Assembly (NCBI GenBank): GCA_030673895.1
Contig: JAUTCR010000035.1
Location: 1 to 64,000, forward strand
Direction: 5' to 3'
Length of the DNA: 64,000 bases
Origin: Verrucomicrobiota bacterium JB023
GTDB taxonomy: Bacteria; Verrucomicrobiota; Verrucomicrobiia; Verrucomicrobiales; Akkermansiaceae
The notes beneath the pieces are model-generated. The model did not search any database and was not told the origin of the DNA. It was given only the letters and a program-made list of their open reading frames with translations. Shown here piece by piece: positions 652 to 14,762 of this stretch; positions within the stretch are counted from its first letter, which is position 1; each line of letters starts with the position of its first letter. The position numbers were made by a program, and so were the translations under genes.

Positions 652-3600
652 CTATTGTCCTTTGTCTGTTTCCAAATACCGGATAAAAGTGTCTTCGAGA
701 TTTTCCGCAAAGTCAGGCTCGGAGGCGTAGCGTTTGTAGAGCTCAAGGTCGTGATTTCTCGCCTTTTTTACAGCTAGCTTGATGATGCCGCGGAGAGCGA
801 GTTTTCGATTCTGTTGGTCTGGGTTGTTGAGGACCTGAGTCTCGTAGTCCGGGTGGGCAATGACTTCATCGCGGATGCGGATGAACTTCACACGCTGCTC
901 CTCGGGGGTAGCGTCCCAATCCGAGAACCAGCGCTCGTTGAAGGTTTGCACGATTTCGTCGAGGGGAGAGAGTTCTTCCGGAGGAGTGTGGGCTCCGCGC
1001 ACATTCTGACTGTCGGGCTCGAGAACGGTTTCCTCGTCGTCCTGCGGAATGGCTTCATTGAGCCGACTGCGTTCCAGTGCGTAGGTGGAGAGGTCCACGC
1101 TTTCTAACAGTTCATCGAGTGAGTCCTGCTCGGGGTCGCGAACCTTCAGTTTTGGGACGAGGAATTTGAGGAACCAATACAGCTTCTCCCAATCCATGTT
1201 CTCAAAGGGGATCAAGCAGGCCATCTGACCATAGAGTTTGACGAACTGCTTGGCCTTGATTTTGAAATCAACTTTCTCGTCGTGCTCTTCAATGAGGTCG
1301 AAGCGGGTCACGACTTCGTCAATGAGGGGGTGGAGCTTCTCGGCGTCGGCATCGTTGAAGAAGAGACGGTTGAAGTTCTCGATCTCCTCGTCGCTGTAGA
1401 GCGCGAACTCTTCGAGCGCATCGCGGATGTCGTGCAGGACGTTGATGTCGGTGGGCTCGGAGAGACTGGTCGCGGTGTAGAACGGGTCGAAGGCCTCTTT
1501 GATGTCTTCGATGGTATTGAAGAAATCGAGGACGAAGGTGTCCTTCTTATCCATCTTCAGATTGGCCCGGTTCAGGCGGCTGAGGGCTTGCACCGCAAGC
1601 ACCCCTTGCAGCTTTTTGTCCACATACATGGAATGCAGCAGGGGCTCATCGAAACCAGTTAGATACTTGTTGGCGACCACGAGGAGGCGGAAGGTTGGGA
1701 CCTGCTTGGTCGGGTTCTCTTTCGCAAAGTCGCCGGACAAGAGCGCCGGGATGTCTTTGGCCGCATAGCCGTTGAGCGAGTCCTCGCTGTGCTCAATGCC
1801 ATCCACCGTTTTCTTGCCGGAAAAGGCGACTAAGGCCGAGAAGTTGGCGTTCCGTTCCTTCAGCTCTTTCTTGATCGCGAAGTAGTAGCGAATGGCGCAT
1901 TCGATATTGCGGGTCACCACCATGCCGCGCGCTTCTCCCCGCAACTTTTTGGTGGCAACGACTTGTCGGGTAAAGTGGTCCACCATCTGGACCGCTTTGG
2001 CTTCGATGGTATCGGGGTGGGCTTCCACGTAGGAGCGCAGCTTGGCTTGCGCCTTCTGGGTGTCGAACTCGGGATTGTCGGCGGTGGATTGACGGACTTC
2101 GTAGTAGCTCTTGTAGGTGGTGTAGTTGGAGAGCACATCCAGGATGAAGCCTTCCTCGATGGCTTGCTTCATGGAGTAGAGGTGAAAGGGGGCGAATCCT
2201 CCTTCGGCGGTTCTAGTGCCAAAGCGCTCCAGGGTGGCCTTCTTGGGAGTGGCTGTGAAGGCGAAGTAGGAGGCATTCTGATTCATTTTCCGCGCTTGAG
2301 CGGTTTTTTGAATCTTCTGTTGGTAGGTCTCCAGGGCCTCAAGGATGGCGTCCTGATCATCCTTCTCTTCCTCGGAGCCCAGCGACATGTTCAGCTTGTC
2401 GGCGGCTTGGCCGCTCTGGGAGGAGTGGGCTTCGTCGATGATGACGGCGAAGTTTTTTTCGCTCATGTCGGCGATGCCATCGACGATGAAGGGGAACTTC
2501 TGGATGGTGGTGGTGATGAGCTTTTTGCCGTTCTCGAGATGGGACTTCAGGTCGGAGGAGCTATCAGCGTGGGCGAGGAGGTTTTTCACCTCGGCAAAGG
2601 CCTTGATGTTCTTGTCGATCTGCCGGTCGAGGACGCGGCGGTCGGTGACCACGATGACGGAGTCGAACAAGTTGTCTTGACCCCATTGGTCGTAGGTCTC
2701 GATGAGCTGATAGGCCAGCCAGGTGATGGAGTTCGATTTCCCGGACCCCGCCGAGTGCTGGATGAGGTAACGTTTCCCGACCCCCTCCTTCTTGACGTCG
2801 TCTAACAGATTGCGAACCACTTGCAGTTGGTGGTAGCGGGGGAAGAAGAGGGTGCGCTTCACCTTGCCGGTCTTTTTGTTCTTCTCTTCGGTGACCTTGG
2901 CGTAGTGCTCGATGATGTTGGTGAGGCTCTGGCGGGTGAGGATTTCTTGCCAAAGGTAGGCGCTGCGATGGCCGTCGGGGTTGGGTGGATTGCCCTTGCC
3001 GTGGTTGTGACCCTTGTTGAAAGGGAGGAAGAAGGTGGACTTGCCGTCGAGCTTGGTGGTCATCCAGACCTCGTCGGGATCGACCGCGAAGTGGACGAGA
3101 CAACGGCGGAATTGAAAGAGCGTTTCCTTGGGGTCGCGGTCCTCGCGGTATTGCTTCTTGGCGTGATTGACGTTCTGGCCCGTCCACGGATTTTTGAGTT
3201 CCAGGGTGGCGAGGGGCAGCCCGTTGAGGAAGAGGACCATGTCGACCGACTTTTGGTCGATGCTGGAGAAGTAGAGCTGCCGGGTGACGGAGAAAAGATT
3301 GCTCTCGAACTTGGCCTTCACCTCAGGATTCAGGTCGTTGTAGGGCAGTCGGTAAAGGAGAGTGAAGTGCGCGTTGTCAACGTCGAGGCCTTTCTTGAGT
3401 ACCGTCAGGATGCCGTCTTTCTTCAGCTTGCGATGGAGGCGTTCGACCACCTGCCGTTTGTAGTCGGGCTTGTAGGTCAGCTTGGCGAGTTCGTCCGCCT
3501 GGGTGGCTTCGAGAAATTGCCAAAATTTGGCTTCGTCGAGGGCGAACTCGGCGTTGAAGTCCTTGGCCTCGCCCCGTAGATAGCCTTTGCCTCCATAGTA

Positions 3601-3705
3601 GGAGACTTCCTCGCCCATGGTAGCGGCCTCGGGGCCGACTGGAGTGCCAAGGAGGTGGTTCTCGATGCAGGCTTCAAGGGCTTGTTCGGTGGTGTCGCTG
3701 CTCAT
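652..3705 (-). CDS. hsdR: Type I restriction endonuclease subunit R (HsdR)
   Basis: 1017 aa; P-loop HSAGSGKSNSITWLAYQL, VIIDEAHSSQSG, FTATPKKATLERFG and the HsdR N-terminal nuclease-like region. Its start overlaps the stop of the upstream DUF1016 gene (ATGA at 3702-3705). Confidence 0.95.
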   Translation of the reverse strand: MSSDTTEQALEACIENHLLGTPVGPEAATMGEEVSYYGGKGYLRGEAKDFNAEFALDEAKFWQFLEATQADELAKLTYKPDYKRQVVERLHRKLKKDGILTVLKKGLDVDNAHFTLLYRLPYNDLNPEVKAKFESNLFSVTRQLYFSSIDQKSVDMVLFLNGLPLATLELKNPWTGQNVNHAKKQYREDRDPKETLFQFRRCLVHFAVDPDEVWMTTKLDGKSTFFLPFNKGHNHGKGNPPNPDGHRSAYLWQEILTRQSLTNIIEHYAKVTEEKNKKTGKVKRTLFFPRYHQLQVVRNLLDDVKKEGVGKRYLIQHSAGSGKSNSITWLAYQLIETYDQWGQDNLFDSVIVVTDRRVLDRQIDKNIKAFAEVKNLLAHADSSSDLKSHLENGKKLITTTIQKFPFIVDGIADMSEKNFAVIIDEAHSSQSGQAADKLNMSLGSEEEKDDQDAILEALETYQQKIQKTAQARKMNQNASYFAFTATPKKATLERFGTRTAEGGFAPFHLYSMKQAIEEGFILDVLSNYTTYKSYYEVRQSTADNPEFDTQKAQAKLRSYVEAHPDTIEAKAVQMVDHFTRQVVATKKLRGEARGMVVTRNIECAIRYYFAIKKELKERNANFSALVAFSGKKTVDGIEHSEDSLNGYAAKDIPALLSGDFAKENPTKQVPTFRLLVVANKYLTGFDEPLLHSMYVDKKLQGVLAVQALSRLNRANLKMDKKDTFVLDFFNTIEDIKEAFDPFYTATSLSEPTDINVLHDIRDALEEFALYSDEEIENFNRLFFNDADAEKLHPLIDEVVTRFDLIEEHDEKVDFKIKAKQFVKLYGQMACLIPFENMDWEKLYWFLKFLVPKLKVRDPEQDSLDELLESVDLSTYALERSRLNEAIPQDDEETVLEPDSQNVRGAHTPPEELSPLDEIVQTFNERWFSDWDATPEEQRVKFIRIRDEVIAHPDYETQVLNNPDQQNRKLALRGIIKLAVKKARNHDLELYKRYASEPDFAENLEDTFIRYLETDKGQ

Positions 3706-4880
3706 GATTCAGGGAGGTCTTTGGATTGACGAACGAGAAAGGCTTCCAGTTCTTCAGGCTTCGGAAGGGCCACTTTGTAGGCCGAGACAAAGAGGTTTTC
3801 ATCCATGCCGCCCAGGGCGTATTCCACGAGGGTGTGGTCCTTGTCGGTGCAGAGCAAGAGACCAATGGGCGGGTTGTCGCCTGTGGCCATCTCATGCTTC
3901 TGATAGTAGTTGAGGTAAGTGTTGAGTTGACCCGCGTTCGCGTGGTTGAAGGGTTCGACCTTCAGTTCGATGAGGACGTGGCAGTGGAGCTTGCGATGGT
4001 AGAAGACGAGGTCGACGAAGTAGTCGCTGGAGCCGATACGGATTTTCTTCTGTCTGTCTTCGAAGCAGAAGCCGTTGCCGAGTTCGAGGAGGAACTCTTG
4101 CAGGTGATCGAGGAGGAGTGTTTCGAGGTCGTTTTCCCGGAAGGCCTCCTTGGGCGTGAGGCCGAGGAACTCGAAAATGTAGGGGTCCTTAATAATGTCG
4201 GCAGGCTGCTGGGATTTCGATTTTTCGGCGGTGAGGCGAAGGAGCTTTTCTTTGTCGGTCGAGAGGCCGAGTCGCTCGAAAAGCAGGGAGCCGATTTGGC
4301 GTTTCAGCTCGCGCACTGACCAGCCGCTCTTGATACACTCGAACTCATAGAATGCGCGTTGGAGAGGGTCGTCGAGGCGGAGAAGTTCGACGAAGTGGGA
4401 GAAGGTCAACTTCTGGATCAGGGTGCTGAAATCCAAGGCGAACTCGGGACGTTGAAATTCCGCAGACAGTGTCTGGGGGATTGCTTCCTCCGTTTTGCCA
4501 AAGATTGCCGACAGCGTCTGCAAAATCCCGGGTCCGAATTCGCCAGACACTGTCTGTCGAATCTCTGACTTTCTCGTTTCCAGTGGCTTGCGGGATTTGA
4601 CAGACGCTGTCTGTTGAATCTCCGGATAGCCAAGGTAGAGCGAACGACAAAGTCTCAGGGTCGTTGGCGGCAAGCCTCGCACTTGGAGTTGCTTCGCCAC
4701 CTCAGAAATCAAGCGTTCCCCATACTCCGCTCGTTCCTCGCCATTTTGCTCAAATTCCACGATGTAGGCACCGACGAGCCAGTTGCGCAGCGTGAGGCCG
4801 ACGTTGGCGGATTGGGCGACATGGCTCTTCAGCGAGCCGTCGAGGTCGCGGAGGCTGGTGAGGAGCTGGTCGAAGTTCAT
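3702..4880 (-). CDS. DUF1016/YhcG-type PDDEXK nuclease domain protein (copy 1, with internal QTxS repeats)
   Basis: 392 aa; VDLVFYHRKLHCHVLIELKVEPFNHANAGQLNTYLNYY is typical of DUF1016. Confidence 0.9.
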   Translation of the reverse strand: MNFDQLLTSLRDLDGSLKSHVAQSANVGLTLRNWLVGAYIVEFEQNGEERAEYGERLISEVAKQLQVRGLPPTTLRLCRSLYLGYPEIQQTASVKSRKPLETRKSEIRQTVSGEFGPGILQTLSAIFGKTEEAIPQTLSAEFQRPEFALDFSTLIQKLTFSHFVELLRLDDPLQRAFYEFECIKSGWSVRELKRQIGSLLFERLGLSTDKEKLLRLTAEKSKSQQPADIIKDPYIFEFLGLTPKEAFRENDLETLLLDHLQEFLLELGNGFCFEDRQKKIRIGSSDYFVDLVFYHRKLHCHVLIELKVEPFNHANAGQLNTYLNYYQKHEMATGDNPPIGLLLCTDKDHTLVEYALGGMDENLFVSAYKVALPKPEELEAFLVRQSKDLPES

Positions 4881-5023: not shown

Positions 5024-7324
5024 TTAGAGCTCAGGCAGTGGCCGTAGTGAATCGAGAGCCGCCGCAGTATCTGCAAACAGATCTTCGACCTCAGAGTCGG
5101 CCTCGAAGTGGTAAGAAACAAATCGATGCTGATGTTCGAGGTTTCGATTGTAGAAGTAGCAGGCGTTTGTGGCTGTCTGCGGTGATGCCATTACACGAAG
5201 GAAGGGCAACAGTTTGATGAAACGATCACCATCCGGGTCCATAAAATGCAGGTAGCCGTCATCCATTCCCTCAATGGTGGTTCGTTCGGCTGTCACAAAT
5301 GGGGTTCGAGTGCCGACAAGCCTCTTCACCGAATACTCAAATAGCCCGTTGGTGTATCTGCACTCGGCGGGCTGCGTGAGTTCGTAACGCTCCCACGTAG
5401 TGCCCATGACGCTGCGGCAGGTTTGAATGAGGCCAGAAAGACGCTCGTAGATAATCTCCAGATCTCGAGCGCCCAAGACGCCACCGTGCGCGTGATCATT
5501 GCGCATACCGTTTGCGTCTTGAAGAACCGTCAAGATGCGACGGTCAAATAGCATATCGAGCACATCCTTGCGCCCTGTGCCAAACATTGCAGCGCAGCGG
5601 TTCGAATCCTTTTCTCGGAGATCACGAAACTTCTTGCTGAGCGTTTCGATCACGCACTTCCAAAGACCAAATGTCGCTCGGTCAAAGCTCAGGTTGGCTT
5701 TCTCAAGGTTCGCGTGAAGAGACTTGCCGTGCTCGCTCCAGAACTCGGAATCTGATTTTGCCGCACTGAGATAGATTGTGGCCCAGAACTCTGAAAGAGC
5801 TTCAAAGAAGTGGAGCAGTATCTCGTTACGCTCACGTATGCCACCATTTGAGGCTCTCCATCGCCAAAGAATAGAAGCGAGAGGGAATGGCAAAGTCTCT
5901 ACCCACGCTTCCAGGGTGTCCTCGTGGTTCACCTTTTCGAGCAGAGCCAACTGTTTGTCTGCGGACCGAGGTTGGCGCCTCAGGGCCGACTCAATTTCAT
6001 CCAGTTCAGCGCGGAGCGCAGTCAGTCGGGAGTTGGCATCAATCACCTGATCCTGAATGTCGCGAGGCGGTAGGAAGTAGGTGCTGTCCAGAAGGTCCTG
6101 CACAGAAATGCGCTGAATGGTGCTCCCAGAGCTAATTGAATCGATGAAAAGGCGGCCCACTTCTGAGTTGAGGGAATCGACCATGAAACGGGCATCGACT
6201 TGCTCAGCATCAAGGACCAAGCGGAGAAGTCTTCTGTTCTTTGAAAGGGCGCCCAAGTCACCTGGCGTCAGAGCTGCTCGCCGCTTTCCATCCAGAGTAA
6301 GGAACAAGTCATTGGCTGAGTCCTCAGTTGCGCCATCAAGACCCTTGCGACTTTCATGCTTGGTAACCAGCGAACTGATTGGAATCGCGTTGAGGCCTGA
6401 ACGCCTAGCTAATTTTTGGAGCTCGTCATTGGCTTCAAGAGATGGAAAGCCGCTGAATTCCTCCGGAGTGACGAGGGCACCTTGGGCCAGTCGCTTACCA
6501 CCTTGGTGATTCTCGTAGTTCTTCAGGATTTCCTCCTCAAGCGCGGTGTCCGTTCCAAACTGAGCAGTGAACACCTGTTGCCGCGCCACCTTGTCCACGA
6601 CTACGATGTAGTAATCAATCGATGCCGCTTTGTGATGGCCAGCAGGGACATGGATCAGCGCACGAAGGTGGCCTCCAAGATCCTCCAGTCGATTCCACAG
6701 CTTTCTGCCTTTTTGGCAGGCGTAGGGTGGAGGCAAAAGGAATACCGCGCGACCAGACTCCGACAAACGAGAAACCGATTGGCACAATAGTGCCTCTCCG
6801 ACATCTGTAACTTTGCCTACTCCGCCGGGAAAGCCGAGCGGCGGATTGAGCCGGAGCCCCATCGGCGATTCCGCAACGATACAATCATACGATTCCTCCA
6901 AGGGATGGTCCCCATGGACTGAATCACCGCAGAAAATCTTGGTGTTCTCAGACGCGAGGATACGAGCCGTTTCCACGGTCTCCGCGTTGATGTCTATGCC
7001 ATGGAGGAGCGAAGCGCCGAGGTTCATGCCAACCAACGAGAGGAGTAAGCCGGAGCCGCACGCAGGATCGAGAACTGAATCGCCTCCTCCGATTGCCGCA
7101 AGTTTCGCCATGAACGGCACAACCGCCTCCGATGGCAGGTGTTCGGCATTCCTAGCGCCGCGATCTCCCAATCCGCTGCGGAGCCACGCATTCAATCGAT
7201 CCCATCTGGTTTGATGATCATCGGCGTCCAAAAGCCACTGCTTCAAGTATTCAGCTGCTGGTGCCTTCCCTCGAAGTTCGTCAATAAAGTTCCAAAGCTG
7301 GTGCTGGAGCGTGTCTTGGTTCAT
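5024..7324 (-). CDS. N6-adenine methyltransferase-like protein with degenerate catalytic motif and C-terminal HEPN-like RNDHAH motif
   Basis: 766 aa; SAM-binding motif DPACGSG (aa 86-92). Motif IV reads AESPMG where NPPF/Y is expected (aa 151-156). HsdS-like stretch STYFLPPRDIQDQVIDAN. C-terminal GMRNDHAHGG (RNDHAH, aa 608-613) fits R-x4-6-H. Confidence 0.75.
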   Translation of the reverse strand: MNQDTLQHQLWNFIDELRGKAPAAEYLKQWLLDADDHQTRWDRLNAWLRSGLGDRGARNAEHLPSEAVVPFMAKLAAIGGGDSVLDPACGSGLLLSLVGMNLGASLLHGIDINAETVETARILASENTKIFCGDSVHGDHPLEESYDCIVAESPMGLRLNPPLGFPGGVGKVTDVGEALLCQSVSRLSESGRAVFLLPPPYACQKGRKLWNRLEDLGGHLRALIHVPAGHHKAASIDYYIVVVDKVARQQVFTAQFGTDTALEEEILKNYENHQGGKRLAQGALVTPEEFSGFPSLEANDELQKLARRSGLNAIPISSLVTKHESRKGLDGATEDSANDLFLTLDGKRRAALTPGDLGALSKNRRLLRLVLDAEQVDARFMVDSLNSEVGRLFIDSISSGSTIQRISVQDLLDSTYFLPPRDIQDQVIDANSRLTALRAELDEIESALRRQPRSADKQLALLEKVNHEDTLEAWVETLPFPLASILWRWRASNGGIRERNEILLHFFEALSEFWATIYLSAAKSDSEFWSEHGKSLHANLEKANLSFDRATFGLWKCVIETLSKKFRDLREKDSNRCAAMFGTGRKDVLDMLFDRRILTVLQDANGMRNDHAHGGVLGARDLEIIYERLSGLIQTCRSVMGTTWERYELTQPAECRYTNGLFEYSVKRLVGTRTPFVTAERTTIEGMDDGYLHFMDPDGDRFIKLLPFLRVMASPQTATNACYFYNRNLEHQHRFVSYHFEADSEVEDLFADTAAALDSLRPLPEL

Positions 7325-7352
7325 TGAGGAAATCCGAGGTTCAGTTTAGGTA

Positions 7353-8534
7353 CTACTTCAGGCGAGAGATTAGATCGAAGAGGGCCGGAGGCACGCCGTC
7401 ATCCTTGATGATTCCGCTTGGAGCCGGGCGGAAGAGAGCTTCGAGGATCAGGCGTCTGTCTTTTGACTCCAGTGCCTTCTCGTCTTGGAGAAGCGAGAGG
7501 TAGGTTTTGACCATCACTACCCGCTCCTGGGCGTCGGACCATGCATGGAGCTGACTGAGAAATATCTTGGAGAGAATTCTCAAAAACCAGAATGCCAGAC
7601 CACCCAGGAGGATCATTCCGGCCACCCGCCAGTATTCGATGGGATCTCCGAGCTTGAGACCCTCATAGATCGCTTTACTTTCAGTCACTAGGAGCTGCCC
7701 GGCACCGTAGAGCCCTCCGGCGAACACAACGGCGAGAACAATCGAGGACCAGAAGGCACGCCTTTGCTTCCCTGCCCAGAACGTTACTGGCTCCTTAAGA
7801 TTAATTTCTTCGCGGTGAGCTTTTTTGAAGGCTTCGATGTCCGCTTTTGTTTCTTCAACGAATTGATCCAAAGATGCTGCCCGGGTGTCATGTAAATCTT
7901 GGAGGTTCTGGTCATGCTTGCTTAGCGTGTCATTGATCGTCTGGAGCTGAGAAGTCCATGATTCATCGTGTTCCTTCCGTTGCTCGCGGAGCTTCGAGAG
8001 TTCATCCTCAAGCTCGGCAACACTCTTGGTGATCGCTGCCTTCGTTGCTGGCTTTAACTCTGCGAGCTTCTGATCAAAAATGGCAGCGTTGAGAAGGGCG
8101 ATGAAGCCTCCCTTGTCCAGCTGGCTTAGCTGGAAAGGTTGATCGAGAAAATACGCCAGAGCCATCAGTGCGGGGACGTCGCCAACAGAGTTCTTTGTTT
8201 CGAGAACGAACTGCGCTTTGGGGTCAGAGTCCGATTGCCACCCCTTGGTCCAATGAGCCCGAAAGTGATTCTCTAGGTTTTTCTTGGTTTGTGCCCACTG
8301 CTGGGGGTTTGCCTCCAGTTGCGTTAGAGGCTTCCGGAGTCCTACAATAAAGTTCGTAATCTGTTGGGCTGCCTGATTGATCGGTTGAGAGCCACCCTGT
8401 CGATGAGACTGCGCCCAACCCCACTTCTCTTCATATGATTCAAGCCAGCTTTGTGCGTCTTCGGGTGTTGGAAGGACGAACGTATTTTCGTTGTCCAAAT
8501 CTACCTCAATGAGATTCTCTTTCTTTTCGGACAT
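7353..8534 (-). CDS. Coiled-coil, two-TM protein (DUF6161-like) inside the type I R-M locus
   Basis: 393 aa; long charged coiled coil (aa ~165-250), two hydrophobic segments (SSIVLAVVFAGGLYGAGQLLV; AGMILLGGLAFWFLRIL), C-terminal DAQERVVMVKTYLSLLQDEKAL...LFRPAPSGIIKDDGVPP. The DUF6161 assignment is from memory. Confidence 0.65.
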   Translation of the reverse strand: MSEKKENLIEVDLDNENTFVLPTPEDAQSWLESYEEKWGWAQSHRQGGSQPINQAAQQITNFIVGLRKPLTQLEANPQQWAQTKKNLENHFRAHWTKGWQSDSDPKAQFVLETKNSVGDVPALMALAYFLDQPFQLSQLDKGGFIALLNAAIFDQKLAELKPATKAAITKSVAELEDELSKLREQRKEHDESWTSQLQTINDTLSKHDQNLQDLHDTRAASLDQFVEETKADIEAFKKAHREEINLKEPVTFWAGKQRRAFWSSIVLAVVFAGGLYGAGQLLVTESKAIYEGLKLGDPIEYWRVAGMILLGGLAFWFLRILSKIFLSQLHAWSDAQERVVMVKTYLSLLQDEKALESKDRRLILEALFRPAPSGIIKDDGVPPALFDLISRLK

Positions 8535-8537
8535 AGA

Positions 8538-9845
8538 TCAGACTTTGATTCTGCCGGTGACGGCGTGGGCGATGAGGGTGCTGCGGAGAGTTTTGAGAGA
8601 TTCGATCTCGTCCGAAATCTTCTTCGCTGCCTTGTGGGAATTCGCAGCCAGTTGATTGCAATGCGCGACGACCTCTTTTTGCTCTTCGAGCGGTGGAGTT
8701 GGAATCCGAAGCCTTCCTAGATCGTCGAGATAAATTCCGGGTTGCGCCGCGTATTTCGTGGCCAGTTCCCAAATCACTTTTTGAGTAGCCCGGTTCTGAA
8801 TCGCGTAGTTCAGGAAGTGGCTATCAACTTTCTTGGGATTCGGGCGGAGTATTCCGAGGCTTCGTTGGACGGAAATCTCAGCGGTGTCGATTTCAACAAC
8901 CGCCGATTTCCCTGTAGTTCCTCCAACTAAGGCGATAACCACGTCCCCAGGTTCGACAGTGTATGAGCGTTGAAGAATCTTGAACTCCCTCGCAGACATC
9001 TTTCGGTCGTCTTCTCGCGTAAAGAATCTCCCTTCCTGAATGTTGCGGACACTCAGAAGCCTGTGAAGTCCTTCAGTTGCAGGTGGCGGGTTGTGAGTTC
9101 CGTCTCGAATTGAGAGGCACAGGTAAAGGAACTTAGGTATCTCCCAATGCTCCGGGATGTCGCCGATCCATTCGATGCCGGAGGGTTTGAGTTTGGCGTT
9201 GGGGTTGAGGCCTCGGGTGACGGCGCGGTTGATGAGGATGGCTTTTTGCTCGTCGAGGAGTTCGATCTGGCGCTGCTTTTTGGCAATCAAGGCGTCGATC
9301 TCCGCCGTCTTCCGATCCAGGAAGGTGACGATGCGGTCTTGTTCGGGTTTGGGGGGGATGGAGAGTGGGAGATACTTGAAGTCTCGCCAGTCGAGGTTCT
9401 GCCGAAGGCCCGTTCCCATTCCGTAGTAGACTTTCAGGAGGTCGTAGCTGTGCAGAAGGTAGTAGAGGTATTCTGAGGAAACCTTGTCGTCGTGTTTGAG
9501 GCCGAGGTAGGCGGAAGTGATGATTCCGCGATTCTTGGCGAGGCCGACTCGGAGGCTCGTCCAATCGTTTTGGAGGTCGGTGGGGCGAATGACAATGTCG
9601 CCCGGATTGATGATTTGGTAGCTTTCAAATGATTCGGGAACGAGTCCGGTGAGTTTCTCAGGTGGCTTGATGACGAGGCGGCCGTAGCTGAGGGAAAGAA
9701 CGGTGTCCTCGATGTTACCCGTGTTTTTTTCCTTGTTTAGAGACAGCGTGACTCGTCCGGGAAGAAGTTTCCAATGCTCGGGAATCTCCCCGAGCCATTC
9801 GACTCCGGAGTCCTTGTAGCGGTCGTATCTGGGGAAGGTGGTCAT
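8538..9845 (-). CDS. hsdS: Type I restriction-modification specificity subunit S (HsdS)
   Basis: Two half-repeats: YKDSGVEWLGEIPEHWK and LKPSGIEWIGDIPEHWE, each followed by a PPKPEQDRIVTFLDRKTAEID or PPLEEQKEVVAHC conserved region. The listed ORF is over-extended; a start at 9845 gives an ATGA overlap with the upstream gene. Confidence 0.93.
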   Translation of the reverse strand: MTTFPRYDRYKDSGVEWLGEIPEHWKLLPGRVTLSLNKEKNTGNIEDTVLSLSYGRLVIKPPEKLTGLVPESFESYQIINPGDIVIRPTDLQNDWTSLRVGLAKNRGIITSAYLGLKHDDKVSSEYLYYLLHSYDLLKVYYGMGTGLRQNLDWRDFKYLPLSIPPKPEQDRIVTFLDRKTAEIDALIAKKQRQIELLDEQKAILINRAVTRGLNPNAKLKPSGIEWIGDIPEHWEIPKFLYLCLSIRDGTHNPPPATEGLHRLLSVRNIQEGRFFTREDDRKMSAREFKILQRSYTVEPGDVVIALVGGTTGKSAVVEIDTAEISVQRSLGILRPNPKKVDSHFLNYAIQNRATQKVIWELATKYAAQPGIYLDDLGRLRIPTPPLEEQKEVVAHCNQLAANSHKAAKKISDEIESLKTLRSTLIAHAVTGRIKV

Positions 9846-10900
9846 GCGTTTTCTCCTTCCTTGTTCTCGAGTCTGGCCTTGGAAAGCGCGATGGCGGCGT
9901 GAAGTTTTTTCTGGAGAAGTTCGCGGGGCGGCAGGGCGGTCAGGTATTCTGCGACGTGGATGCCGGACTGGTCGAGTTCGAGCAACTCGATTTGTTCCTC
10001 TTTCTTGCCCGCGCAAAGGATGAGGCCAAGCGGCGGATTCTCGCCGGGTTGTTGTTCGTGTTTGGCGAGCCAGCGGAGGTAGAGTTCCATCTGGCCTTTG
10101 TGCTCGGGTTTGAAGTCGCCGAGTTTGAGGTCGATGGCGATGAGGCGTTTCAGTCCGCGATGGTAGAAGAGGAGATCGAGATAGAAGTCGTCCGAGTCGA
10201 TGGGGATGCGGAACTGGCGGGCTTGGAAGGTGAAGCCTTGGCCAAGTTCGAGGAGGAAGGTTTCGAGCTCACGCAGGATGGCGTCTTCGAGGTCTTTTTC
10301 GAGGTAGCGGTCCCTGAGGCCGAGGAAATCGAGGATATAGGGATCGCGGAAGATGAGGTCGGGGGTGAGCTGGTCCTCGGCGCGGAGGTCGGCGAGTTCC
10401 GCTTTGGCGACTTCATCAGGCTTCTTCGAAATGGCGGTGCGCTCGAAGAGCATGGAGTCGATCTTTTTGCGCAGAGTGCGGACGCTCCAGCGTTCGACGC
10501 GGCACATCTCCGCGTAGAATTCCCGCTGGAGGTCGTCTTTGAGCGGAATGATTTCTTTGAAATGCGACCAGCCCAATTGTCGCGACAGTGTAGCAACAAT
10601 TTCCGCCTCATCGAACACCTCCGAGAATCTCACCATTCGAGTCAACGCCGAATAGCTGAATCCACGCCCAAAGTCGGTGGTCAATTCTTGCGACAGCGTA
10701 GCAAGAATCTCTTTTCCGTATTCTGCCCGCTGATTCTTAAGCACTTCCACCTGGATCCTTCTGCCGATGCGCCAGTAGAGCAGGGTCATCCCCGCATTGA
10801 CGGTGCGAGCGACTCCTTCGCGGGTCTGCTCGATCATGGAGCGCACGTCGGCGATGAGGCCGTCGTCGCTCTCGATGATCTGAAGGTCGTTGCTATCCAT
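9842..10900 (-). CDS. DUF1016/YhcG-type PDDEXK nuclease domain protein (copy 2)
   Basis: 352 aa; LDLLFYHRGLKRLIAIDLKLGDFKPEHKGQMELYLRWL plus EIVATLSRQLGWSHFKEIIPL. Confidence 0.9.
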   Translation of the reverse strand: MDSNDLQIIESDDGLIADVRSMIEQTREGVARTVNAGMTLLYWRIGRRIQVEVLKNQRAEYGKEILATLSQELTTDFGRGFSYSALTRMVRFSEVFDEAEIVATLSRQLGWSHFKEIIPLKDDLQREFYAEMCRVERWSVRTLRKKIDSMLFERTAISKKPDEVAKAELADLRAEDQLTPDLIFRDPYILDFLGLRDRYLEKDLEDAILRELETFLLELGQGFTFQARQFRIPIDSDDFYLDLLFYHRGLKRLIAIDLKLGDFKPEHKGQMELYLRWLAKHEQQPGENPPLGLILCAGKKEEQIELLELDQSGIHVAEYLTALPPRELLQKKLHAAIALSKARLENKEGENA

Positions 10901-10954: not shown

Positions 10955-13252
10955 TTAAATTTTGCTACATTGGGCGAAATCGAGGATGCGTTCGAGGAGG
11001 CCTTCGGTTTCCTTCTCCAAGTCGCGGATTTCTTGCACGACTTCGTCGAGGTCGCGCAGCGGTTGGTGGACGTAGAAGTATTTGTTGAAGGAAATTTCGT
11101 AGCCAATGACGGTCTTGCTGTGGTCGATCCAGGCGTCTGGGATGTGGGGGAGGACCTCTTTTTCGAAGTAGGCTCCCACCTTCGCCGAGGCTTCGGCGGG
11201 CAAGTCGCTGCCCATGTAATTCATGGGGACGTTTTCGGTGTCGCGGAGTTCGCTGTCGGCCTCGTAGCCGTCCTTGGTGGTCACGGGTTCAGCCTCTGGG
11301 TCGCGCCAGGAGACGGCTTCGAGGATGGCCTTGAGCTGGGGGGCGCTGAGTTTGAGCTTCAGTTCCTTGAGGGCGGCTTTGACGTCCTTTTGGAACTGGT
11401 TGAAGTCGTGCGAGAGGTCGTCGCCGAGGTGTTGGTGGAGTTGTTTGGCGGCTTGGAGAAGTTCGCGCTTGGCGGTCCAGAACTTGGAATCGAGCAGCTT
11501 CTTTTTGTCGGCGGCTTTGCGGTCGATTTCTTCTTTCTCAAGCCAGTCGTCGAGGGCGTCCTTTTGTTCCTTGGCGCTGAGGAAGTCGGGTTCGTAGACT
11601 TGTTCGCCCCATTGCTCGAACATCCATTGCATTTCCTCGGCGAGGCGTTTGTCGAAGCGGAGGGATTCGATGCGTTCGGCGGTGAATTGAGCGGATTTGC
11701 GAAGGGGGCGTTCGACGGTGATCTTCCAGTAGCCGAAGTCGCGGTTGTCGAAGACCTGGGATTTGAGCCCGTCGACTGCTTCCTTGCCGGTGTCGACGAG
11801 ATCGAGGTAGGCGCGGGTGATCTGCGCGATGTGCGCGGGGGTGAAGGCGCAGTTCTTCTCACCGAGGTTTTTGCGAAGCTTTTCGTAGAGCTGGGAGGCG
11901 TCGATGAGCTGGACCTTGCCACGGCGGGCCTCGGGTTTGTGATTGCTAAGGACCCAGATGTAGGTGGTGATGCCGGTGTTGTAGAAGATGTTGTTGGGCA
12001 GCTGGATGATGGCCTCGAGGAGGTCGTTCTCGATGAGGTATTGGCGGATGTTGCTGGCACCGCCGCCGGCATTGCCAGTGAAGAGGGCGGAGCCGTTGTG
12101 GACGGTGGCGATGCGGCTGCCGAGGGGGGCGTCCTGGAGGCGTTTCATTTTGCTGACCATCTCCATGAGGAAGAGGAGCTGGCCATCATCGACGGCGGGG
12201 GCGGCGGAGACCGTTTGCATCCGGCCTTGAGCATCGGGGAGTTGGACTTCGAAGCGGGGGTCGATGATTTCGGTTTTGGAGCCCTTTTTCTCGAGAATCT
12301 GGCCCTGGTCGGTTTTCCAGCTCTTTCCATAGGGAGGATTGGAGAGCATGAAGTCGAAGCGGAGGCTGGAGAACTCGTCGGTGGCGAGGGTGGAGCCGAA
12401 CTTGATGTTCTCGGGGTCGTTGCCCTTGATGAGCATGTCGGACTTGCAGATGGCGTAGGTCTCGGGGTTGACCTCTTTCCCGTAAAGGTAGGTGGCGGCG
12501 GTGGACTGGATTGGGCCATCGGGGAGCTTGATGTAGTCCTGGGCCTCGGTGAGCATGCCGCCGGAGCCGCAGGCGGGGTCGTAGATGGTGATGACGGGCG
12601 GGAGCTGGTCCTTCACGGGCTCGATGAGGAGGTGGACCATGAGCTGGATGACCTCGCGCGGGGTGAAGTGCTCGCCGGCTTCTTCGTTGTTCTCCTCGTT
12701 GAACTTGCGGATGAGTTCCTCAAAGACATAGCCCATGCCGAGGTTGGTGAGGCCGGGGAGCTTGCGGCCGTCGGGGCCCTCGACGTCGTGATGGGAGAGG
12801 TTGATGGTGGGGGCGACGAATTTCTCGATGACGCCATGGAGGGCGTCGGCCACCGCCATCTTGCGGATCTGATTGCGGAGATCGAATTTCTCGATGATTT
12901 CCGCGACGTTGGGGCTGAAGGCGTCGAGGTATTGATTGAAGTTCGCCTCGAGCTGGGAGGGGTTGCCGAGGAGTTTCTTGAGGGTGAATTGAGAGGTGTT
13001 GTAGAAGACTTGGCCAGAGGCGTCGCGAAGGCCATCGGGGTCGAGAACGGCCATGCCCGCTTCTTCTTTCTGGAATTTCACTTCAGCAAGAACGGCGTCC
13101 TTGGTGTCCTCCAACAGGCAGTCGATGCGTCGGAGGACGAACATGGGGAGGATAACGTCGCGGTATTTCCCTCGAACAAAGACATCCCGCAGGCAGTCGT
13201 CCGCGATGGACCAGATGAAAGAGACAATCTTGTTATGCGTTGCGTGATCCAT
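10955..13252 (-). CDS. hsdM: Type I restriction-modification DNA methyltransferase subunit M (HsdM)
   Basis: 765 aa; EHFTPREVIQLMVHLL, DPACGSGGMLTEA, FMLSNPPYGKSWK. Confidence 0.95.
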   Translation of the reverse strand: MDHATHNKIVSFIWSIADDCLRDVFVRGKYRDVILPMFVLRRIDCLLEDTKDAVLAEVKFQKEEAGMAVLDPDGLRDASGQVFYNTSQFTLKKLLGNPSQLEANFNQYLDAFSPNVAEIIEKFDLRNQIRKMAVADALHGVIEKFVAPTINLSHHDVEGPDGRKLPGLTNLGMGYVFEELIRKFNEENNEEAGEHFTPREVIQLMVHLLIEPVKDQLPPVITIYDPACGSGGMLTEAQDYIKLPDGPIQSTAATYLYGKEVNPETYAICKSDMLIKGNDPENIKFGSTLATDEFSSLRFDFMLSNPPYGKSWKTDQGQILEKKGSKTEIIDPRFEVQLPDAQGRMQTVSAAPAVDDGQLLFLMEMVSKMKRLQDAPLGSRIATVHNGSALFTGNAGGGASNIRQYLIENDLLEAIIQLPNNIFYNTGITTYIWVLSNHKPEARRGKVQLIDASQLYEKLRKNLGEKNCAFTPAHIAQITRAYLDLVDTGKEAVDGLKSQVFDNRDFGYWKITVERPLRKSAQFTAERIESLRFDKRLAEEMQWMFEQWGEQVYEPDFLSAKEQKDALDDWLEKEEIDRKAADKKKLLDSKFWTAKRELLQAAKQLHQHLGDDLSHDFNQFQKDVKAALKELKLKLSAPQLKAILEAVSWRDPEAEPVTTKDGYEADSELRDTENVPMNYMGSDLPAEASAKVGAYFEKEVLPHIPDAWIDHSKTVIGYEISFNKYFYVHQPLRDLDEVVQEIRDLEKETEGLLERILDFAQCSKI

Positions 13253-13467: not shown

Positions 13468-14559
13468 TCATTTCCCCAGAATTTCGAGAAGTCGGTGGTT
13501 GATGAAGAGGAGTTCGTTGCCGTATTTGACGGGGGTGACAAATCCGATTTCGGCGAGTTCGTGGAGGTAGCGGGAGGCGGTAGCCCGTTTGGCGAGTCCG
13601 GCGTCCTGAACGAATTTGATTTTGCAATAGGGGCGGTAAAAGAGGAGTTCAATGAGTTCCTTGGAATAGGTGGGACGGGAGAGTCGCTCCTTGCCCGTTT
13701 CGCAGAGTTCGTCAAAGAGGCTGGAGATGGCGCGGATTTTTTCAGAGGTGTCGTTGGCTGTTTGTTCGATGCCGTTGAGCATGTAGAGGAGCCAGTTTTC
13801 CCAGCTTTCGGTCTCCGTGACCTGGCGCAGATGCTGGTAGTAGTCGGCCTTGTGCTCGATGATGTAGCGACTGAGGAAGAGCACGGGTTGTTCGAGAAGA
13901 CCGGTGACGAGGAGGTAGAGGATGATGAGGATCCGGCCGGTACGGCCATTGCCGTCGTAAAAGGGGTGAATGGCCTCAAATTGGTAATGGGCGAGGGCGA
14001 CCCGGATGAGGGGATCGAGGTCGCCGGGGGGCTCGTTGAGAAATCGTTCGAGGTCGGCGAGCTTGGCTCGGATGAGGTCCTCTCCTTCGGGGGGAGTGTA
14101 GAAAATTTGGCCGGTGGTTGGATTCTTGATTTGAGTGCCGGGCTGGGAGCGAATTGCGGCCTCGTTTTGCTTGAGAACCTGGACGATTTCGATGAAGAGG
14201 TTGGTCGTCAAGAGGGGGCTATTGGAGAGCTTTGCCGCCGCCGACCAGAGGGCTTCGTTGTAGTGGAGGACTTCCTTGGCGTGGGGGGAGAGGCCGAGAG
14301 TTTCCATGCTGAGGCCCCGATAAAGCTCGTCGTTGGTCGTGACGATGTTCTCAATCTCGGAGCTGGCCTTGGCTTCCTGCAGAGCGATGGTGCTGGTGAG
14401 AATGCTGGGATTGGGAAGAGTGCGGGTGCGGCCCTTGAGCTCGGCAAGAGCCCGGGCGGCTCGGGTGACAGCTTTGAGGACGGGAACGCTTTCCAAGTCT
14501 GCAGCCGGAGGAAGTGCCGGGAGATCGTTGTAAGGCTTTTCTCGGGAGAAATTACTCAT
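13468..14559 (-). CDS. Fic/DOC family protein with C-terminal winged helix
   Basis: HPFYDGNGRTGRILIILYL Fic motif; N-terminal SSEIEN fits the inhibitory (S/T)xxxE(G/N) motif; C-terminal wHTH ELIELLFYRPYCKIKFVQDAGLAKRATASRYLHELAEIGFV. Start chosen at MSNFSREKP (14559). Confidence 0.93.
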   Translation of the reverse strand: MSNFSREKPYNDLPALPPAADLESVPVLKAVTRAARALAELKGRTRTLPNPSILTSTIALQEAKASSEIENIVTTNDELYRGLSMETLGLSPHAKEVLHYNEALWSAAAKLSNSPLLTTNLFIEIVQVLKQNEAAIRSQPGTQIKNPTTGQIFYTPPEGEDLIRAKLADLERFLNEPPGDLDPLIRVALAHYQFEAIHPFYDGNGRTGRILIILYLLVTGLLEQPVLFLSRYIIEHKADYYQHLRQVTETESWENWLLYMLNGIEQTANDTSEKIRAISSLFDELCETGKERLSRPTYSKELIELLFYRPYCKIKFVQDAGLAKRATASRYLHELAEIGFVTPVKYGNELLFINHRLLEILGK

Positions 14560-14571
14560 GACTGGCAGGAG

Positions 14572-14762
14572 TGTTCGTTTTTTGAAAAGAAATGAACATG
14601 GAAGACCGGAAATCGGTTTTCGTGTGCAAAGAGTGAACACGGATGATGAGTAATGTTCAAGAAATTGATTTTTTTGAACAAAGGTTGAGCGAATTTTAAA
14701 CCTTTGTGCAGAAAATGAACACAGTCCGGGAAGTCTGTTCAAAAAATTTCAATTTATGAACA
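14572..14762. repeat. Phased TGTTCA/TGAACA array upstream of fic
   Basis: TGAACA at 14593, 14634, 14675, 14716, 14757 (exactly 41 bp apart); TGTTC(A/G) at 14572, 14654, 14736 (82 bp apart); TGTGCA at 14623 and 14705 (82 bp apart). Confidence 0.85.

Follow-up and report, generated by a model that had tools for sequence, protein, structure and literature searches.

The type I R-M operon and its additional genes

The window analysed here, a stretch of 64,000 nucleotides, lies on contig 35 of a 4.03-Mb genome and contains a type I restriction-modification (R-M) operon on the minus strand, with the genes in the order hsdM, DUF1016, hsdS, DUF6161 (393 aa), a gene encoding a 766-aa protein, DUF1016 and hsdR (Table 1). 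The spacing is tight, since only 3 bp separate hsdS from the 393-aa gene and 28 bp the latter from the 766-aa gene, and the second DUF1016 gene overlaps hsdR. When re-read from the sequence, the coordinates, lengths, strand and 28-bp gap that an initial annotation had given for the 766-aa/393-aa pair were found to be correct; its description of the pair as a two-gene insert between hsdS and hsdR is right as to position, but it had overlooked the DUF1016 gene that lies before hsdR. The two DUF1016/YhcG paralogues bracket hsdS, DUF6161 and the 766-aa gene, and a Fic gene is found upstream of hsdM (13468-14742). Third-position G+C is 58-59% in the 766-aa and 393-aa genes, compared with 81% in hsdM and 77% in hsdR, which fits an insertion. 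A promoter scan gave no surplus relative to shuffled sequence.

Table 1. Genes of the type I R-M operon and features of the 766-aa protein, with their positions in the window
Feature	Position	Strand	Evidence
hsdM, type I methyltransferase subunit, NPPY intact	10955..13252	-	Pfam N6_Mtase 1.3e-57, HsdM_N 2.2e-23; NPPY from sequence
DUF1016/YhcG PD-(D/E)XK nuclease-like gene, copy 1, between hsdM and hsdS	9842..10900	-	Pfam YhcG_C 3.8e-47
hsdS, specificity subunit	8538..9842	-	Pfam Methylase_S 5.6e-17
DUF6161/AbiZ-like 393-aa coiled-coil gene, two TM segments	7353..8534	-	Pfam PF19658 4.7e-19; PADLOC AbiZ 1.5e-13
766-aa pseudo-methyltransferase/TRD/HEPN-type gene	5024..7324	-	Profile matches, alignment, structure model
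DUF1016/YhcG nuclease-like gene, copy 2, between the 766-aa gene and hsdR	3702..4880	-	Pfam YhcG_C 1.1e-55
hsdR, restriction/translocase subunit	652..3705	-	Pfam HSDR_N 1.2e-16, SWI2_SNF2 2.7e-28
Degenerate N6-methyltransferase domain, aa 66-260	6545..7129	-	PADLOC mad2 1.8e-16, MTase_I 3.3e-6; Foldseek 7eew E 1.6e-13
Motif I DPACGSG, aa 86-92	7049..7069	-	Sequence
Motif IV site, ESPM in place of NPPF/Y, aa 152-155	6860..6871	-	Alignment of 40 sequences
HsdS/TRD-like stretch and long helix, aa 336-450	5975..6319	-	PADLOC Specificity_I 2.3e-6; modelled helix 421-450
Helical HEPN-type bundle, aa 471-640	5405..5914	-	AF2 C-terminal module pLDDT 93; HEPN_Swt1 profile similarity
RNDHAH, aa 608-613, invariant R608, N609 and H613, followed by G615	5486..5503	-	40/40 identical
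Conserved beta-rich tail with YFYNR and SYHF motifs, aa 648-760	5045..5383	-	Alignment, AF2 model

Domain architecture of the 766-aa protein

The only Pfam matches on the 766-aa protein are marginal methyltransferase ones, with none beyond aa 260, and PADLOC detects similarity to methyltransferases over aa 55-257 and to type I specificity subunits over approximately aa 336-450. An AlphaFold2 model of the full protein, obtained with 28 relatives (mean pLDDT 85.6, pTM 0.58), was matched by Foldseek to type I M subunits and to single-chain M-TRD enzymes (7eew, PacII, CamA and M.BseCI). The SAM motif DPACGSG, the ESPM that replaces the catalytic NPPF/Y and the HsdS-like segment PPRDIQDQVI, all read from the letters by the initial annotation, are present, the last of them within the region similar to type I specificity subunits. 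ESPM departs from the (D/N/S)PP(Y/F/W) pattern of HsdM motif IV. Membership of the MADS system (MAD1-8) was considered and rejected, given that the matches are at the domain level only (mad2 over aa 60-257; mad5, 3.7e-5), that the NCBIfam MADS5 score of 15 bits falls short of its cut-off, 400, and that the neighbours are ordinary hsd genes.

No model of Pfam, NCBIfam or PADLOC covers the C-terminal module. Modelled alone (pLDDT 93, pTM 0.91), it is predicted to form a helical bundle followed by a beta-rich tail, and the modelled helix 141-159 carries R608 and N609 near its end and H613 at the end, followed directly by a turn and a further helix. PDB phmmer matches of aa 674-731 to designed 'Cake' proteins contained no passing stretch and were discarded as spurious.

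The R-x4-6-H motif of HEPN RNases, with a polar residue after the arginine, is present in its exact form (R608, N609, H613), as had been proposed for RNDHAH. Comparison of the module profile with HEPN_Swt1 sequences by hhalign gave a score of 34.7, against a maximum of 24.1 for 300 unrelated control proteins, and the alignment falls on RN..H. When single members were compared with the relevant Pfam families, HEPN_Swt1 was the most consistent match, although a weak one (best E 0.045). The module profile also aligns weakly (E 0.18-0.45) with a solved CRISPR-associated protein at RNSVAHGG, a chain that to judge from its motif is probably a HEPN protein, and a core HEPN profile run against PDB and Pfam returned weak scores, again with HEPN-motif matches. 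Foldseek of the module returned no HEPN structure, even though the model is a confident helical bundle; its top matches (flavohaemoglobin, E 6.5e-3, TM <0.25) were set aside as a spurious helical-plus-beta likeness. Considering the sequence-profile support together with a fold search that did not recover the family, the C-terminal module is quite likely a HEPN domain.

Relatives and motif conservation

A genome scan with the C-terminal alignment yielded 39 loci, making 40 aligned sequences with the window protein. The relatives belong to Verrucomicrobiota, Actinomycetota, Chloroflexota, Bacillota, Bacteroidota, archaea and other groups, and their C-terminal modules share 22-65% identity with that of the window protein. 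R608, N609, H613 and G615 are identical in every one of the 40 sequences, so the motif noticed by the initial annotation is not a chance occurrence. The methyltransferase part behaves differently: of 36 relatives in which the motif IV site is readable, one has a canonical sequence (DPPW in L073), a count that omits L046 and L049, in which the site is absent, and L080, which has no methyltransferase part. The site varies freely across the family, with readings such as ESPM, EIPY, DAPW, CLPF and FPPS. The HsdM proteins of the same loci carry NPPF or NPPY in 19 of 19 cases. Selection therefore maintains the HEPN pattern and not methylation. Motif I, intact in the window protein, has been lost in many members; it is retained in 14 of 17 with R-M neighbours versus 11 of 22 without them (p 0.049, uncorrected for shared ancestry).

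Further copies are found on plasmids of Gordonia and Streptomyces; the Gordonia copy (L026:7768-10287) has an in-frame stop mid-gene and may be broken. The plasmid tblastn with the Streptomyces protein gave an output dominated by ordinary HsdM. Other matches lie on AHPND Vibrio plasmids. A scan of viral contigs produced a single match, confined to the methyltransferase part, and a tblastn search of phages likewise returned a methyltransferase match only.

Genomic context of the relatives

At least 20 of the 39 relatives lie in a type I R-M operon, a fraction that is a lower bound because several contigs are short; a strict script count gives 17, to which three more were added: L049, where the frame is split, L058, with one intervening gene, and L073, at the end of its contig. 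With X denoting the 766-aa homologue, the gene orders are hsdM-hsdS-X-hsdR or hsdM-hsdS-hsdR-X, the arrangement hsdS-X-hsdR being found in L042, L043, L044 and L071; where the order is hsdR-X, the genes overlap or abut. The HsdR types of L074, L049 and L056 differ from that of the main group (the latter two with EcoEI_R_C), and since X occurs alongside unrelated HsdR families the R-M link probably arose repeatedly. In one locus (L080:6776-10912) the HEPN-type module forms the C-terminus of a complete HsdR. The earlier proposal of a degenerate methyltransferase/HsdS-like chain that carries a HEPN-type motif is supported, as is its recurrent tie to type I R-M operons.

The L080 operon, from a Sericytochromatia MAG, also includes hsdM, DUF1016, hsdS and a GmrSD gene. 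Extra genes are present in other type I operons as well, namely GmrSD (L043), SIR2-like and HerA-like genes (L044), and DUF4268 and DUF3644 (L071).

Approximately half of the members have no detected adjacent hsd genes, among them archaeal ones and one beside McrBC (L079), and consequently R-M cannot be the sole partner. In six archaeal standalone members (L054, L055, L057, L060, L069 and L070) the gene is followed by one of about 285 aa, which is an OGG-type DNA glycosylase in both cases scanned (L054 and L057); several of these six show stronger decay of the methyltransferase part. The distance correlation between X and HsdR is 0.60, much looser than the 0.99 between HsdM and HsdR.

The DUF6161 neighbour

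The initial annotation had described the 393-aa protein as a coiled-coil protein with two TM segments. Both the coiled coil and the hydrophobic segments (approximately aa 260-284 and 302-327) are confirmed, but membership of a named family had been missed: DUF6161 scores 69.2 bits against a Pfam cut-off of 27, and the C-terminal half of the protein fits both the DUF6161 and the AbiZ profiles, the difference being that the gene described here lies in a type I operon. Of the 19 DUF6161 occurrences seen, 7 are inside type I operons. In one such operon from Bacteroidota (L106:8918-11351) the gene adjoins a Fic gene, between hsdS and hsdR.

It had also been claimed that the 766-aa and 393-aa proteins are a two-gene abortive-infection module with a membrane partner, a reading that accommodates their adjacency on the same strand and the third-position G+C that they share and that sets them apart from hsdM and hsdR. 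This claim is largely refuted, and we regard such a dedicated module as very unlikely. A DUF6161 profile search gave no match in the 39 genomes that encode a homologue of the 766-aa protein; the profile itself works, as it picked up the family elsewhere; even the closest relative, in Opitutus (L042), is without DUF6161. Moreover, in a sister genome (G275, locus L039) hsdM and DUF6161 are each 95% identical in amino acids to those of the window, and the 90% DNA identity stops at the DUF6161 stop codon; the slot of the 766-aa gene is taken by an unrelated gene with a deoxycytidylate-deaminase domain (L039:7849-10628; Pfam 1.1e-18), followed by hsdR at 77%. The deaminase-domain protein is of a type familiar from anti-phage dCTP deaminases. 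In Acinetobacter (L028) the gene after DUF6161 is SIR2-like by motif only, with no convincing Pfam match. The DUF6161 protein is a recurrent but independent AbiZ-like accessory, loosely linked to the 766-aa gene.

Relation to known systems and possible mechanism

The closest functional precedent may be PrrC, an anticodon nuclease of the HEPN type whose gene lies in a type I operon; it is held latent by the R-M enzyme EcoprrI and freed when phage T4 blocks the enzyme (PMC3874165, PMC12707154, PMC3710099). The 766-aa protein resembles it in the HEPN-type nuclease motif and in the location of its gene inside a type I hsd operon, and latency through R-M is proposed here by analogy. PrrC differs in having an ABC-ATPase N-terminus and no methyltransferase/TRD, where the 766-aa protein has a pseudo-M/S N-terminus; searches of Pfam, NCBIfam and PDB gave no match to an ABC-ATPase domain in the latter. 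With HEPN_Swt1 and other R-M-linked HEPN families the protein has in common the RN-x-H motif at a helix end, the R-M linkage and a weak profile similarity, but it lies outside all Pfam models, and no methylase fusion has been described for those families. The fold predicted for approximately aa 66-450 is that of type I HsdM/HsdS and of single-chain M-TRD enzymes (CamA, M.BseCI, BpuSI), from which the protein differs by the loss of motif IV and the gain of the HEPN-type module. TgvAB and other embedded defences (PMC11411939) are likewise additional defence genes between hsd genes; these are GmrSD-like modification-dependent DNases without sequence kinship to the 766-aa protein.

We consider, with about even confidence, that the 766-aa protein is a PrrC-like accessory effector, or guard, of the type I R-M enzyme. 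The observed basis of this model is the architecture, the decay of the methyltransferase motifs against the invariance of the HEPN motif, and the recurrent type I context; from it we infer the RNase activity, docking, latency and trigger. The N-terminal two thirds would mimic an HsdM plus half-HsdS chain whose methylation site has been lost, and this pseudo-M/S chain would most likely dock onto the R-M enzyme or its DNA, or lie next to them, holding the C-terminal HEPN-type RNase latent. A phage that blocks or evades the R-M enzyme would then cause release of the RNase, and growth would stop.

The main rival to the guard model is a self-contained sensor-effector, in which the degenerate MTase/TRD chain reads phage or modified DNA and activates the HEPN RNase independently of R-M, the operon position reflecting defence clustering. 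Standalone members in archaea, Bacillota and other groups, the looser covariation of X with HsdR than that of HsdM, and the precedent of TgvAB, which shows that a defence carried inside a type I operon can work apart from restriction (PMC11411939), speak for it. We nevertheless judge it rather improbable, since hsd genes directly adjoin about half of the relatives, with several HsdR families and one direct HsdR fusion, and the more frequent retention of motif I beside R-M neighbours, uncorrected for ancestry, hints that the partner matters. Less probable still is that the C-terminal module is a non-catalytic RNA- or protein-binding domain and that the whole protein regulates or re-specifies R-M as a dummy M/S subunit; this would agree with the fold search and with the existence of non-catalytic HEPN domains (PMC3710099), but the residues that never vary coincide exactly with the HEPN catalytic pair and the polar residue after R, and complete invariance across bacteria and archaea is what an active site predicts. 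That the protein still methylates, adding a second modification by way of an atypical motif IV, is highly improbable despite the intact motif I of the window protein and the DPPW of L073, as the motif IV site varies freely and many members have lost motif I.

Both the linkage of HEPN domains to R-M (PMC3710099) and the embedding of defences in type I operons (PMC11411939) were already known. What is new is the pseudo-MTase/TRD/HEPN-type architecture and a module without a Pfam, NCBIfam or PADLOC model, with respect to open PMC papers, so that an earlier description is possible. Anantharaman et al. (2013, PMC3710099) described R-M-linked HEPN domains as joined to nucleases, helicases and ATPases but 'not to the methylases', a statement that the fusion of a pseudo-methyltransferase to a HEPN-type module contradicts. 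The guard model may extend, more tentatively, to a widespread, so far undescribed class in which a dead type I methyltransferase, serving as a decoy M/S chain, would hold a HEPN RNase latent while sensing the condition of the R-M enzyme, across several type I families and including the direct HsdR fusion.

Among nucleases that guard a type I R-M enzyme, PrrC has long served as the main well-studied case. The near-identical operon with a different cargo gene in the sister genome provides a natural experiment in the swapping of embedded defences, and the dead methyltransferase offers a concrete and testable idea for how an RNase senses the R-M enzyme. If the guard model is true, the family would represent a second, unrelated guard architecture in bacteria and archaea, and R-M systems would have repeatedly gained RNase back-ups.
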